In this document: positions 3,498-9,433 of the stretch, piece after piece
Layout: every line of letters starts with the position of its first letter
How positions within the stretch are numbered: the first letter of the stretch is position 1
Source of the DNA: Deferribacterales bacterium Deferri_01
Lineage (GTDB): Bacteria > Chrysiogenota > Deferribacteres > Deferribacterales > Geovibrionaceae
NCBI GenBank assembly: GCA_001603805.1
Contig: LUZY01000011.1
Location: 124,001 to 188,000 of the forward strand
Reading direction: 5' to 3'
DNA: 64,000 nucleotides
The notes under the pieces: model-generated
The model's database searches: none
Told to the model about the DNA's origin: nothing
Seen by the model: only the letters and a program-made list of their open reading frames with translations
Program-made: the position numbers and the translations under genes

Positions 3498-3548
3498 GTT
3501 AAAAATGATTCAATACAGCGTATTTATATAAAAGTGAGGAGGGTGTCC

Positions 3549-3842
3549 ATGGCTCAAGTATCTGTTGAAGAGAACAGTGTTAAAATAAAAGGGAATATTA
3601 AAAGTATAGATGATTACCTCACCGTAAAAAATTCTCTTCAGGAACTTGTTGATTCCGGATACCGCAGTATTGATATATGCTTCTTGGATTCAGTTTCCAT
3701 TACCTCATCAATTATCGGGTACATGCTTAAGCTCATTAATATTGATAAGATTGAGCTTACGGTTGCCGCCGGTGACAAAAAACTGATAACACTTATGGAG
3801 GAGCTTGAGCTTCATAATGTTTTCAGCGTCAGAGAACTCTGA
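3549..3842 (+). CDS. STAS-like (anti-sigma factor antagonist-like) protein
   Basis: A 97-residue protein whose pattern (short strand, helix DDYLTVKNSLQELV, strand IDICFLDS, then SVSITSSIIGYMLKL) follows the STAS fold. In that fold a serine or threonine at the start of the DS-(S/T) loop is phosphorylated in SpoIIAA-type antagonists. The start at 3549 is chosen because AGGAGG at 3537-3542 precedes it at proper spacing; an in-frame GTG upstream lies on the ribosome binding site itself. No anti-sigma kinase or PP2C phosphatase gene is visible nearby. It may serve the signalling operon that follows, but it appears to have its own promoter. Confidence 0.65.
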   Translation: MAQVSVEENSVKIKGNIKSIDDYLTVKNSLQELVDSGYRSIDICFLDSVSITSSIIGYMLKLINIDKIELTVAAGDKKLITLMEELELHNVFSVREL

Positions 3843-3962: not shown

Positions 3963-4322
3963 ATGAAAGATATATCTGTACTTATCGTTGAAGATGATCC
4001 GGCAGTTGCCAATGCATTGGAGCTTAGATTGAAGCGTACATTCAGAAGAGTGCTGAGTGCACCTGACGGTCTTAAGGGACTTGAAACTGCGGTTACTGAA
4101 AAGCCTGACGTTATTCTGACGGATCTCCGTATGCCCCACATGGAAGGGTTGGCCATGATAGAAGAGATCCGTAAAACCCTGCCGGATGTACATGTTATAG
4201 TTCTTACCGCATCCAGTGACCGATTTGACCGTAACAAGGCTGAAGAACTTGGTGTTGAAGGTTATTTTACAAAACCTCTGATGGTGAATGAGCTTATAGC
4301 GAAAATTCAGGAGATGGTTTAA
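3963..4322 (+). CDS. Single-domain response regulator (CheY-like receiver)
   Basis: The 119 residues form one receiver domain with no output domain. The acidic pair is E10-D12, the phospho-acceptor is Asp54 in ILTDLRMP, the switch threonine is Thr82 and the conserved lysine is Lys104 in FTKP, so it should be phosphorylated. GGAAGGA precedes the ATG. It is the first gene after a strong promoter and lies one base from the luxP start, so it is in the same operon as the AI-2 receptor and the GGDEF-EAL protein. No histidine kinase is encoded in this operon, so its phosphodonor must come from elsewhere. Confidence 0.93.
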   Translation: MKDISVLIVEDDPAVANALELRLKRTFRRVLSAPDGLKGLETAVTEKPDVILTDLRMPHMEGLAMIEEIRKTLPDVHVIVLTASSDRFDRNKAEELGVEGYFTKPLMVNELIAKIQEMV

Positions 4323-4323
4323 T

Positions 4324-5424
4324 ATGAAAGGGGCTAAGGCTCTCTTTCTGTTTGTTTTTCTCACCTCTTTTGCCGCATTTGCTGATGAACGGTCGTTTTA
4401 TACTGTCTCCGAATACATGCTGAAAAGTCCTGAGCAGGCGTGGAAATTTGATAATTTTGCCAATATTGTACGCAGTGAACCGGTTCCTTTGAAGTCCGTT
4501 AATACCACTCCTGTGAAAATAGCCGTTGTTTATCCTGCGCTTCAGTCCTCCGACTACTGGAGACGAAGCGAACGGGCTCTTAAAAAGCGTTTGTCAGAGC
4601 TTAATATAAACTATACCCTGCTTACTTATCACAGCAAACCTTCAGGGGATACCAGATTACAGGTTTCGCAGCTTGCTCAGGCAGCTTCCGCAGGGGCGGA
4701 CTTCATTATTGTTTCCGCAGATTCCCCTCAGATGCGCAGTGCGGTGGGCAGGCTGTTGTTTGAAGGCAGACATAAAATAATAATACAGAACCTGACTACA
4801 CCTCTTAAGGAGTGGGAACGCCGCCGTCCCCTTCTTTATACAGGGTTTGACCATATTTCCGGTTCGGCGATTCTGGCTGATTCCGCCGCTTCGATGGCTG
4901 GGCAGAATGCATCTTATGCTGTTCTTAACTGCTCAGAAGGAGAAGTGGGATATCTCAGGACAAAAGGCTTTGAGGAAAGACTTGCAGAGCGCGGGGAATA
5001 TGCTAAAAAGGCTGAGTATATTACCGATTTCAATCTGGAAAAAGCACGGGCTGCCACAAGGGAAATTATAAAGAAATATCCGGATATAAGCTTTATTTTT
5101 GCATGTTCAACAGACATTGCCCTTGGTGCGGCGGAAGCCCTGAAAGATTCCGGAACGAAAAATGTTATTCTTAACGGATGGGGCGGCGGTGAAGCGGAAC
5201 TGCGGCTGATAGAGAGAGGGGAGCTTGATTTTACAGTCATGCGGATGAATGATGACAGCAGTATAGCGGCGGCAGAAGCGGTGAAGCTTGTTATTTCCGG
5301 TATGGAAAAAGAGGTTCCTGTCATTTTTTCAGGAGACTTCAGCCTTATCACCGCATCGGACAGTGCAGAAAAAATAAAAGAACTAAAAAAGAAAGCCTTC
5401 AGGTACTCCGGTGAAAATGAATAG
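4324..5424 (+). CDS. luxP: LuxP-type autoinducer-2 periplasmic receptor
   Basis: A 366-residue type I periplasmic sugar-binding fold protein with a signal peptide (cleavage near FAAFA-D). Similarity to Vibrio LuxP is strong along the chain: VYPALQSSDYW, LQN-like QNLTTP-EW, TGFDH, CSTDIALGA, NGWGGG, VMRMNDD and the C-terminal KKKAFRYS. From memory the AI-2 contacts in V. harveyi LuxP are Gln77, Ser79, Trp82, Asn159, Arg215, Trp289 and Arg310; here Gln74, Ser76, Trp79, Asn156, Arg212, Trp286 and Arg307 stand at the equivalent places, a constant offset of three. It should therefore bind the borate form of AI-2. It ends inside the start of the GGDEF-EAL sensor gene (14-base overlap), its likely membrane partner. 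No luxS is visible in the window. Confidence 0.92.
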   Translation: MKGAKALFLFVFLTSFAAFADERSFYTVSEYMLKSPEQAWKFDNFANIVRSEPVPLKSVNTTPVKIAVVYPALQSSDYWRRSERALKKRLSELNINYTLLTYHSKPSGDTRLQVSQLAQAASAGADFIIVSADSPQMRSAVGRLLFEGRHKIIIQNLTTPLKEWERRRPLLYTGFDHISGSAILADSAASMAGQNASYAVLNCSEGEVGYLRTKGFEERLAERGEYAKKAEYITDFNLEKARAATREIIKKYPDISFIFACSTDIALGAAEALKDSGTKNVILNGWGGGEAELRLIERGELDFTVMRMNDDSSIAAAEAVKLVISGMEKEVPVIFSGDFSLITASDSAEKIKELKKKAFRYSGENE

Positions 5425-8400
5425 AATTAAATCAGTTAAGATATCGTCATTTCTTGCTCTGCTGCTGACGGGTTTCTCGGTAATCCTGTCCGTGGTTATC
5501 CTTGTTTGGAACAGCCTTGATGCAGGCATTATCATTAAAAGAGAGCAGTCCCGGCTGCTTAAACGTAATCATGACACTGCTTCAATGGTTTTTGAAAAAG
5601 AAATAGAGCATCTCAGCTGGGTTACAAGGGATCTCCGAATAAATTTAAAGCAGCTTCTGGAAAGGAATGCAGACATTAATTCGGATGATTTCAGGAGCGG
5701 TTTTGCATCCATATATGATTTAAGCGCAGGGGAAAATCTGGACATTATGATTTTCGTGTCATTTGACGGTACGAATGTTATTGATGTCGGTTCTATGTTT
5801 TTTGACACGAGCGAGATAGTCCGTTTTTTACAGACAAAAGGGAACAGCGTTTCTGCGGGCGGTTCGGTATATACAATCAGAAAGCCTGACAACTCGGCTC
5901 CTCTGAGCTTTATTCTGGGGTATTCATCCGTTAATCACCCCTCCAGCGGGCAGGTTCTCGGCAGGGTTTACATAGGCAAGATAATAAACGGAGCGCCGGA
6001 TATTATACGCGAGGCGGAATTTGAAGATGGTTCGTTGGTTGCCTTTGTTTCAGAAGGCAGAATAATATCCTCTTCTGACGGATTTACTGCATCAAATTTT
6101 TTTCCGGAAGCCTGCGAGAAACCTGATACTGTTTTAAGGGCAACAGGCTCACTCACTGCGTACTGCAGACCTCTTCTTCTGAAAGGCAGCGAAACTCCGC
6201 TGATGATTTATCAGCTTACCGGAAGCCAGTCTCTTGCTATGATGAAAAAACAGACAGCCGGCAAGGCAGCCGGCATCATTCTGCTTGTTATAATAATGAC
6301 CGGAGTTTCTGTTTACGGCTTTCACAGGGTGACCGCGCGTTCCCTGCATTATCTTATAGACTATACTCACAAGATAAGCGCTTCCGGCAGCACAGATGAC
6401 TTTGAGCCGACTCCGGTGGAGGAGTTTAACATGCTCGGAGAGGCTGTTTCTGCAATGAACAGGGAACTGCGTGAAACACAGGCATATCTGGGCAATTTTC
6501 TGAGCTTCGCCAAAGTGCCTCTCATTGCGTGGGACACCGAAAATAAAATTGTAATATTCAACAAAGCCATGGGTGAGCTTTCCGGCATAAGTGAACAAGA
6601 TGCTATCGGAGAAAGCCTTGAAATAATTTTTTCCTGCCTTTCCGGTGAAAAGCTTAAAGAACTGCTTCTGAAAGCGGCGGATAATGCAGATACGCTTTCT
6701 AATTTTGAATCCATAGTAAAGAACATAAGCACAGGCGAGATGAAATATATTCTTTGGAACCTTTCAATGGCGGGAACTGAAGGAAATAGCTTCGGCGTTG
6801 TGCTTCAGGGTATAGATATTACCGACAGAAAATCGTCGGAGGAAAAACTTCTGCTTGCTTCAAAAGTTTTTGAAAACACTATTGAGGCAATTTACATAAC
6901 CAATACAAGAGGCGTTATTCTCAGTGTTAATAAAGCCTTCCTGCGGATTACAGGCTTCAGCGAGGAAGAAGCAATCGGAAATAAAACCAGTATCCTCCGC
7001 TCCGGCAGGCATGCCAACCACTTTTATAAAGGACTATGGGGAGCGCTGAAAGAGACAGGAACATGGCAGGGTGAAATATGGAACAGACGCAAAAACGGTG
7101 AACTCTATCCCGCACTGGTTAATATATCGAGCATTAAAGACTCAAACGGGAATATCTCACATTATATTGGCGTTATGCACGACATAACTGAAAGAAAAAA
7201 ATATGAAGAGCAGATAAAGTACCAGTCTCACTATGATCCGCTGACCAACCTGCCTAATCGCTACCTGTTCCATGACAGACTGAGTATGGCTATATCCAGA
7301 GCTAAGAAAAACCACAACTATGTGGGGCTCATATCCATCGATATCGACAGGTTTAAAAATGTTAACGACACTCTCGGACATAACGTTGGGGACATACTCC
7401 TTCAGAAGATAGCAGACCGCATAGTCGGCACAGTGGGTGACAGTATCACAGTAAGCCGTCTTGGAGGAGATGAGTACACTGTTATTGTGGAGGATCTTTC
7501 CGATAAAAACAGAGCTGTAACAATCGCCTATAACGTTATTAAGCAACTTGAAAAGCCGTTTCAGGTGGATGATTACGAGTTGTTTCTCAAATGCAGCGCA
7601 GGCTTAAGCTTTTACCCTGATGATGGCGAAGATGTTTTCACTGTCGCCAAAAACGCCGATGCGGCAATGTACCGTGCAAAGTCAAAAGGGCGGGGCATGC
7701 TTCAGATATATACCACAGACTTTAATGACACAGCCAAAGACAGGCTCATTGTGGAAACAAAACTGAACAGGGCTTTGGATAACGGTGAGTTTGAGGTGTA
7801 TTATCAGCCGAAGATAAATCTCCGCACACTTGAGCTCGTGGGCATGGAAGCTCTTATAAGATGGAATAATGCTGAACTCGGCAGGGTATTTCCTGATATG
7901 TTTATACCCATAGCAGAAGAAACCGGACTTATTGTTCCCATCGGTCAGTGGGTGCTGAAAAAATCCTGCGAGGACCTCATGAGATGGCGTTCGATGGGGT
8001 ATGAGCTTAAAGTGGCAGTGAATCTTTCACTGAAGCAGTTTATTCAGAAGGATCTTTTTATGTCTGTGCGGAATGTGCTTCAGGAGACCGGCATGGAGCC
8101 GAAGCATCTTGAGCTTGAAATTACAGAAAGCACGATAATGGTTGATACTGACAATACAATGGATATTCTTGATAAACTCAGCTCACTGGGGATAAGCTTC
8201 GCCATTGATGACTTCGGAACAGGGTTCAGCTCCATAGGCTACCTTACCAGAATACCTATAGATACTATTAAAATAGATAAATCCTTCACTCAGGGGATCG
8301 ATACCAGCGAGGATTCTCTCTCCATTGTCCGTTCTGTCATTCAGCTTTCCAGCAACTTAGGAATTGAGGTCGTGGCGGAGGGTGTGGAGAATGAGGACCA

Positions 8401-8542
8401 TCTCCGCCTTTTACGTGAGCTTGAGTGTGATCTGGCGCAGGGATACTACTTCAGCAGACCTGTCCCCGCAGAGGAGTTTGAAAAACTCCTTGAAGGGTGG
8501 CAGGAGAGCTTTGCTCTGGAGATAAATTCAACAAAGCAGTGA
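5411..8542 (+). CDS. Membrane sensor with LuxQ-like periplasmic domain, PAS-PAS-GGDEF-EAL
   Basis: The 1043-residue inner-membrane protein makes or breaks cyclic di-GMP. TM1 is about residues 11-34 and TM2 about 284-304; the roughly 250-residue loop between them is periplasmic and has the size and local pattern (PSSGQVLG...) of the double-PAS periplasmic domain of LuxQ. A HAMP-like linker, PAS (about 356-475) and PAS (about 485-600) follow. The GGDEF domain carries GGDEY at 685-689 and has no RxxD I-site. The EAL domain keeps EAL (813-815), DDFGTG (933-938) and the AEGVE loop, so both activities may be retained. It starts with GTG at 5411 or ATG at 5417, overlapping luxP. AI-2-loaded LuxP probably controls it; that coupling is inference. 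Confidence 0.9.
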   Translation: MKMNRIKSVKISSFLALLLTGFSVILSVVILVWNSLDAGIIIKREQSRLLKRNHDTASMVFEKEIEHLSWVTRDLRINLKQLLERNADINSDDFRSGFASIYDLSAGENLDIMIFVSFDGTNVIDVGSMFFDTSEIVRFLQTKGNSVSAGGSVYTIRKPDNSAPLSFILGYSSVNHPSSGQVLGRVYIGKIINGAPDIIREAEFEDGSLVAFVSEGRIISSSDGFTASNFFPEACEKPDTVLRATGSLTAYCRPLLLKGSETPLMIYQLTGSQSLAMMKKQTAGKAAGIILLVIIMTGVSVYGFHRVTARSLHYLIDYTHKISASGSTDDFEPTPVEEFNMLGEAVSAMNRELRETQAYLGNFLSFAKVPLIAWDTENKIVIFNKAMGELSGISEQDAIGESLEIIFSCLSGEKLKELLLKAADNADTLSNFESIVKNISTGEMKYILWNLSMAGTEGNSFGVVLQGIDITDRKSSEEKLLLASKVFENTIEAIYITNTRGVILSVNKAFLRITGFSEEEAIGNKTSILRSGRHANHFYKGLWGALKETGTWQGEIWNRRKNGELYPALVNISSIKDSNGNISHYIGVMHDITERKKYEEQIKYQSHYDPLTNLPNRYLFHDRLSMAISRAKKNHNYVGLISIDIDRFKNVNDTLGHNVGDILLQKIADRIVGTVGDSITVSRLGGDEYTVIVEDLSDKNRAVTIAYNVIKQLEKPFQVDDYELFLKCSAGLSFYPDDGEDVFTVAKNADAAMYRAKSKGRGMLQIYTTDFNDTAKDRLIVETKLNRALDNGEFEVYYQPKINLRTLELVGMEALIRWNNAELGRVFPDMFIPIAEETGLIVPIGQWVLKKSCEDLMRWRSMGYELKVAVNLSLKQFIQKDLFMSVRNVLQETGMEPKHLELEITESTIMVDTDNTMDILDKLSSLGISFAIDDFGTGFSSIGYLTRIPIDTIKIDKSFTQGIDTSEDSLSIVRSVIQLSSNLGIEVVAEGVENEDHLRLLRELECDLAQGYYFSRPVPAEEFEKLLEGWQESFALEINSTKQ

Positions 8543-8548
8543 TAAGCC

Positions 8549-9379
8549 CTACAGTTTGGCAGGACCAGCCATTCCGAATCCCTGCGTGGTTCTTATGCCT
8601 ATTCCTGACTCCACAAGCAGAGAGAGGTCATCAGGGTGTCCTGAAAGCTGAAAAGTTCCTGTTATGCCGGTAAGCATCATGAGAGACTTGCCGGTCTTTT
8701 CCCTGAACTTGTCTAGGGTGTGTTTAATAACTGTTTTACGCAGTTTGATTGATTTGAAAACAATGGGCTCCTGCGGGTATTTCCCTGTCATTCCGAAAAT
8801 ACGCATAGAAGATATCTCCGCCAGCCTGTCGGAATATTCCTTTTCAGTTACTTCCAGTTCGCTGTAGCCATCCTCAACCGGTGGGATTATAGGCTTTTTC
8901 GAGTTCAGCGCTTCCAGCAGCACAGGAGAATGCGTGTGCAGGGTTACTCCGGAAGATTCAATTGTAAAGGGTTTATTGAGAAGCTTTGTGTTCTCAAGCA
9001 TGTAGGTAAGCTTTCTGCCGCCGACAAGGATTTGACCATTTCTGGAAAAGTCTATGTTTCTCTTTTTTTCAAAGCCGTTCTGTACAGCCTGAAGAAACTG
9101 CTCGTACGGACTGCTTACGTACAGAGTGATAAATTTGTTTTCCGGTATGTAGAACACTGTGTCATGCACTTCAAAGTTATTGTCGAACACGATAGATTCT
9201 TTTTTGAACCTGTCTCTGGAAAAAGCAAGATTGAACGTGAAAAACTTAAAACTTTTGTCCGTGAGTCCCATCCCCAGCGACTCATAGCCGATTTCTGCTG
9301 CGGATTTAATAACTTCGGCTATTCTGTTCCTGAAAATGACCGGTACTTCAGTTGCGGTAAGAGTAAGTTTCAAAAGCAT
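8549..9379 (-). CDS. cas6: CRISPR-associated endoribonuclease Cas6 (solitary)
   Basis: A 276-residue protein with the Cas6 layout: two ferredoxin-like halves and a C-terminal glycine-rich loop, GIGIRTTQGFGMAG at 259-272, the hallmark of RAMP RNA-binding proteins. Cas6 cuts CRISPR precursor RNA within repeats. The motif KFFTFN near residue 45 corresponds to the usual KPFTFS, but the histidine normally found shortly before it is absent (MGLTDKSF). The first His is at 72, so catalysis may be lost or may use other residues. The ATG at 9379 has AGGAG at good spacing and is preferred over an upstream TTG. No other cas gene and no repeat array is in the window, so it either acts in trans or is a remnant. 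Confidence 0.85.
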   Translation of the reverse strand: MLLKLTLTATEVPVIFRNRIAEVIKSAAEIGYESLGMGLTDKSFKFFTFNLAFSRDRFKKESIVFDNNFEVHDTVFYIPENKFITLYVSSPYEQFLQAVQNGFEKKRNIDFSRNGQILVGGRKLTYMLENTKLLNKPFTIESSGVTLHTHSPVLLEALNSKKPIIPPVEDGYSELEVTEKEYSDRLAEISSMRIFGMTGKYPQEPIVFKSIKLRKTVIKHTLDKFREKTGKSLMMLTGITGTFQLSGHPDDLSLLVESGIGIRTTQGFGMAGPAKL

Positions 9380-9433
9380 CGGGAAGTCTCCTGTCAAAAA
9401 AGAAAATTCACAATTAAGTATGTTTGCATTTTT

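Follow-up and report, generated by a model that had tools for sequence, protein, structure and literature searches.

In textbook LuxP signalling, detection of autoinducer-2 (AI-2) feeds a phosphorelay that leads to quorum-sensing genes, and in LuxPQ the ligand-bound LuxP reorganises LuxQ. Periplasmic binding proteins can also act on enzymes of cyclic di-GMP (c-di-GMP) metabolism: in Vibrio cholerae, the binding protein NspS switches the GGDEF-EAL enzyme MbaA (PMC8967002). LuxP itself was reported by Rezzonico and Duffy in 2008 in marine bacteria lacking luxS (Neptuniibacter, Marinomonas, and Desulfuromonas), and listening was suggested; luxP was found there in an operon with partners described only as PAS-containing regulators, with no mention of GGDEF or of diguanylate cyclases (PMC2561040). 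A 2025 paper reports that three LuxP sensory domains, drawn from Proteobacteria and Deferribacterota, bind AI-2; it views LuxP as a sensor-only protein, with AI-2 bound “for transport into the cell” (PMC12268683).

A 2016 survey of Cache domains counted 115 proteins with the LuxQ periplasmic domain, of which 112 were kinases and 1 was a c-di-GMP enzyme (PMC4822843). Coupling of this domain to c-di-GMP has therefore been tabulated once, and in the open-access literature we found no paper that discusses it, although an earlier description elsewhere is possible. The LuxP receptor is thus already known in Deferribacterota, and its c-di-GMP wiring appears to be little described.

Here we analyse a 64,000-nucleotide stretch of DNA (the window) from a member of the Deferribacterota, family Geovibrionaceae (the family of Denitrovibrio). 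Its luxP gene is followed by a gene joining a LuxQ-like sensor to GGDEF and EAL domains (Table 1). This downstream partner, overlooked by the first-pass annotation of the window, is the distinctive part of the locus.

Table 1. Features of the luxP locus, with coordinates in the window
Feature	Position	Strand	Remarks
Small STAS-like protein	3534..3842	+	Named by eye; no Pfam match
Single-domain response regulator (REC)	3963..4322	+	PF00072, 95 bits; ends one base before luxP
luxP orthologue	4324..5424	+	366 aa, ATG start; signal-peptide-like N-terminus; Peripla_BP_4 fold
Partner receptor, LuxQ-type periplasmic sensor + PAS + PAS + GGDEF + EAL	5411..8542	+	1043 aa
Partner residues 1-330	5411..6400	+	TM helix, LuxQ-like periplasmic double-PAS/Cache domain (~35-275), second TM helix
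Second PAS domain, partner residues 486-592	6866..7186	+	PF00989
GGDEF domain, partner residues 606-761	7226..7693	+	PF00990, 148 bits; motif GGDEY, without RxxD inhibitory site
EAL phosphodiesterase domain, partner residues 784-1017	7760..8461	+	PF00563, 261 bits

LuxP receptor and its ligand pocket

In a phmmer search of the PDB, the luxP product matched Vibrio harveyi LuxP over residues 25 to 363 (288 bits, E = 9e-85), and the next-best family, the ribose-binding proteins, reached 44 bits (1e-10). Identity to V. harveyi LuxP is 41% overall, with 132 of 312 positions identical along the mature chain. The reverse strand of the gene carries stops throughout in the frame tested. In the MAFFT alignment, Gln74, Ser76, Trp79, Asn156, and Arg212 correspond to LuxP Q77, S79, W82, N159, and R215, and Ser262, Thr263, Asp264, Trp286, and Arg307 correspond to S265, T266, D267, W289, and R310. 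The first-pass annotation had called a complete LuxP with its AI-2 contacts kept, and both the full-length match and the alignment of all of these residues bear this out, including its placement of Thr263 beside Asp264. It had also claimed a constant numbering offset of three over the whole chain; the offset is constant until about residue 325, and so spans every contact, but is then shifted by a 2-residue insertion that lies past the last of them.

Identity at all 10 AI-2 contacts would be expected with a hypergeometric P value of 1.5e-4 given the mature-chain identity, and eight of them do not vary among 61 LuxPs (P = 3e-7, a value that ignores relatedness). The contacts are intact in the window LuxP and its eight relatives in the phylum, apart from one S265A. 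Contact residues alone are no proof of LuxP, because two distant ABC-transporter sugar-binding relatives (28 to 29% identical) have six of the ten (S79, W82, R215, T266, W289, and R310); LuxP is distinguished from these two solely by Q77, S265, and D267 and, relative to one of them, N159. The window LuxP is placed well within the LuxP clade. Its AlphaFold model (pLDDT of 92.5), the input alignment of which contains Vibrio rows, lies 1.4 Å rmsd from AI-2-bound LuxP (1JX6), with a target-normalised TM score of 0.96. Comparison with V. harveyi LuxP and its solved structure, which the first-pass annotation had proposed as a check, thus finds the pocket conserved. Judged by these alignments, the gene is an intact LuxP orthologue.

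The STAS-like and REC genes upstream of luxP are retained across the genus, at 77% and 88% identity, respectively. REC also adjoins luxP in one sister genus (G023), and synteny of the STAS-like gene is confined to the genus. Just 3' of the partner lies a Cas6-like gene on the minus strand (8549-9397; PF01881, 54 bits); a search for a nearby CRISPR array yielded no direct-repeat family in positions 8400 to 64000.

Partner gene and its predicted output

The partner gene, starting at a GTG at 5411 or an ATG at 5417, overlaps the luxP stop. Its Pfam architecture is PAS-PAS-GGDEF-EAL, with no kinase domain (HisKA, HATPase, or REC output) detected. When seven Deferribacterota sensors were compared with 11 Vibrionaceae LuxQs by hhalign, they matched with 99.6% probability (E = 1.4e-23) over 306 columns, and a profile built from Deferribacterota sensors only recovered PDB LuxQ at 5e-8 and no other significant match. 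Against the LuxQ periplasmic family PF09308 (cut-off of 25.7 bits), the window partner scores 19.3 bits and its Denitrovibrio acetiphilus counterpart 40.2 bits, above the cut-off, and the first 480 residues of the partner match the NCBIfam Vibrio LuxQ model with 82 bits, where the cut-off for the full protein is 1200. In the AlphaFold model of the sensor (pLDDT of 88.6), LuxQ structures take all six top places among PDB folds, ahead of dCache chemoreceptors, with TM scores to LuxQ of ~0.6 to 0.7; the fold is supporting rather than independent evidence, because the alignment behind the model contained Vibrio rows. The profile comparisons indicate that the partner sensor is homologous to Vibrio LuxQ.

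By motif reading, the EAL catalytic set is complete (E813, N871, E903, D933, D934, K954, and E990). Phosphodiesterase activity is likely and cyclase activity uncertain, because this set is complete and the GGDEF motif reads GGDEY without RxxD. From these motifs, we lean toward a partner that would be mainly a phosphodiesterase enzyme.

Linkage of LuxP and the LuxQ-like sensor within the phylum

Of 50 genomes searched in the phylum, nine have LuxP, and exactly these nine also have the LuxQ-like domain. The sensor profile was built from seven of the nine positives, so the value of this co-occurrence lies chiefly in the 41 negatives. The two genes are adjacent in all nine genomes, with a transposase between them in one: in D. 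acetiphilus, a 466-aa transposase-like gene lies on the opposite strand between luxP and the GGDEF-EAL partner (L013:6058-7458). The partner of Denitrovibrio sp. BM704 (L014:7483-10494) has one in-frame TAA that parts the LuxQ-like domain from GGDEF-EAL; the gene may be broken, or the stop may stem from misassembly. In a genome from another family of the phylum (G009; L017:6666-10099), luxP is instead paired with a classical hybrid histidine kinase, and the LuxP of this genome falls outside the phylum's GGDEF-EAL clade.

Distribution and outputs of LuxP

Searching 84,980 species genomes gave 307 LuxP relatives, with Oceanospirillaceae, Halomonas, Stappia/Labrenzia, Kiloniella, Desulfobacterota, Arcobacter, and Vibrio among the best 80 of the 307. 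Groups with LuxP outside Vibrio include Oceanospirillales, Alphaproteobacteria, Desulfobacterota, Arcobacter, and Deferribacterota. The first-pass annotation had presented LuxP outside Vibrio as exceptional, a view that is not supported, as the receptor is found in all of these groups and has been published outside Vibrio since 2008. No relatives were found among viral contigs.

Partners in Vibrio are hybrid kinases, whereas GGDEF-EAL partners are found in Oceanospirillaceae, Halomonas, Stappia/Labrenzia, and most Deferribacterota. On a tree made by a quick method, with its deep branches open, the output changed between kinase and GGDEF-EAL at least three times. In the Desulfococcaceae bacterium HSG9 (L022:9233-11467), luxP is followed by a gene encoding the LuxQ periplasmic domain (78 bits), PAS, and a SpoIIE phosphatase; in this one Desulfococcaceae genome, SpoIIE is a third type of output for the LuxP/LuxQ input.

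Among 47 sampled LuxP carriers, some of them incomplete MAGs, luxS was found in 9 of 9 Vibrionaceae compared to 14 of 38 others. A rule by which LuxP with GGDEF-EAL means no luxS fails, as luxS is present in 6 of 19 such sampled carriers outside Deferribacterota.

Host genome and source of AI-2

The host genome (2.85 Mb in 14 contigs) is rated 100% complete. In family searches with positive controls, luxS (PF02664) was found neither in this genome nor in any of the 50 genomes of the phylum searched. The absence of luxS noted for the window in the first-pass annotation therefore extends to the whole genome. SAH is recycled by an SAH hydrolase (508 bits), and a family search of the host genome did not find Pfs. 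The host is thus not an AI-2 quorum-sensing organism in the strict sense, since its own LuxS-made AI-2 is missing; it may have non-LuxS sources of AI-2-like compounds. Because the LuxP pocket is intact and the whole genome is without luxS, listening to the AI-2 of others, as already suggested by the first-pass annotation, is the natural reading.

Proposed mechanism and alternative explanations

We consider the locus to be an AI-2 sensing module with direct c-di-GMP output, in a receiver without a known AI-2 synthase, and give this reading a probability of roughly 0.75. LuxP would be exported to the periplasm and bind AI-2, probably as the borate diester, and would pair with the periplasmic, LuxQ-like domain of the downstream partner. 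On binding its ligand, LuxP would close and thereby rearrange this receptor, and the change would pass through the TM helices and PAS domains to shift GGDEF/EAL activity, so that AI-2 from other species would set c-di-GMP in a cell without a known AI-2 route. Sequences and models establish the orthology and pocket of LuxP, the LuxQ homology of the sensor, the overlap of the two genes, their co-occurrence, the complete EAL set, and the lack of luxS; AI-2 as the ligand, the physical complex, and the c-di-GMP output we infer. By analogy with LuxPQ and NspS-MbaA, the c-di-GMP activity of the partner is expected to shift once LuxP has bound AI-2. The locus would then resemble LuxPQ in its input and NspS-MbaA in its output.

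One alternative concerns the output only. The partner could be a non-enzymatic, LapD-like receptor or a phosphodiesterase only, with AI-2 controlling a protein interaction or a one-way breakdown of c-di-GMP; this would be compatible with an AI-2 input. The GGDEY motif and the missing I-site favour such an output, but GGDEF-EAL partners in other genera carry GGDEF where the window partner has GGDEY, the EAL catalytic set is complete, and among family models the partner fits the phosphodiesterase DibA best (664 bits, where the cut-off is 980), against 141 bits for LapD, leaving this alternative unlikely, if a serious one. Less probable still is that the same pair and c-di-GMP output serve a different natural ligand, which would be a similar sugar or a sugar-borate diester and not the AI-2 made by LuxS. 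The LuxP family is a branch of the ribose-type binding proteins, crystal structures of V. harveyi LuxP itself exist with an AI-2 analogue derived from formose and with 1-deoxy-alpha-L-xylulofuranose-1,2-borate (PDB 4YP9 and 4YR7), and the host does not make LuxS AI-2. Against a sugar ligand stand the retention of Q77, N159, S265, T266, and D267 in a pocket nearly invariant over 61 LuxPs, a separate ribose-binding protein, RbsB, in the host genome, and the reported AI-2 binding by Deferribacterota LuxPs (PMC12268683). A role in sugar import, as the binding component of an ABC transporter and not as a signalling receptor, would fit the Peripla_BP_4 family and the 28 to 29% identical relatives adjoining ABC permeases. 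Here, however, luxP overlaps a LuxQ-like receptor gene and its product lies deep in the LuxP clade; as no ABC genes lie nearby, we rejected this role as very improbable.

As to the origin of the gene, recent acquisition of luxP from Vibrio by horizontal transfer would agree with a Vibrio protein being the best solved match and with the absence of the gene from most genomes of the phylum. The tree that the first-pass annotation had proposed for detecting such a transfer speaks against it: the window LuxP belongs to a clade of eight Deferribacterota sequences from luxP-GGDEF-EAL loci (SH-aLRT of 98), which extends to the other class of the phylum, and the Vibrionaceae LuxPs form a separate clade (support of 99). 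The G+C content of luxP (46%) also matches that of the window (44%). On the tree and G+C content together, we dismissed recent transfer from Vibrio as highly unlikely; an older transfer of luxP into or out of the phylum may have occurred.

The AI-2 module with c-di-GMP output can be placed in a wider frame, toward which we incline only slightly: the LuxP/LuxQ pair may be a portable AI-2 input to which evolution has joined three or more kinds of output (hybrid kinase, GGDEF-EAL, and SpoIIE phosphatase), and in luxS-less Deferribacterota foreign AI-2 may directly set c-di-GMP and thereby, probably, influence attachment or motility. The pair is seemingly wired straight to c-di-GMP here and in many marine bacteria, often luxS-less. 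Such wiring would make it directly testable which species sense AI-2 that they do not produce, and to what end, and surveys that treat LuxP as a sensor-only or transport protein would overlook its output.

Comparison with known systems

NspS-MbaA resembles the system proposed for the window locus in that a periplasmic binding protein controls a membrane GGDEF-EAL enzyme, a functional analogy for which we do not claim homology; NspS binds norspermidine and spermidine, whereas the window locus has LuxP and a LuxQ-like sensor. The LuxP of Neptuniibacter caesariensis (L085) has the same type of GGDEF-EAL partner as the window LuxP. The LuxPs of PMC12268683 share receptor family and phylum with it, and a GGDEF-EAL partner is not reported for them in the portions of that paper available. 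The dCache (CahR) and YeaJ receptors with GGDEF output link AI-2 to c-di-GMP enzymes as we propose here (PMC7584622, PMC12268683), but they bind AI-2 in the receptor's own domain without LuxP, whereas the window locus uses LuxP. LuxP-LuxQ of V. harveyi (1JX6, 1ZHH, and 2HJ9) has the same AI-2 pocket and an adjacent, overlapping gene that carries the homologous LuxQ sensor. In V. harveyi, the output of LuxPQ is a hybrid histidine kinase acting on LuxU/LuxO, whereas in the window locus the sensor is joined to two PAS domains, GGDEF, and EAL in a luxS-less host.
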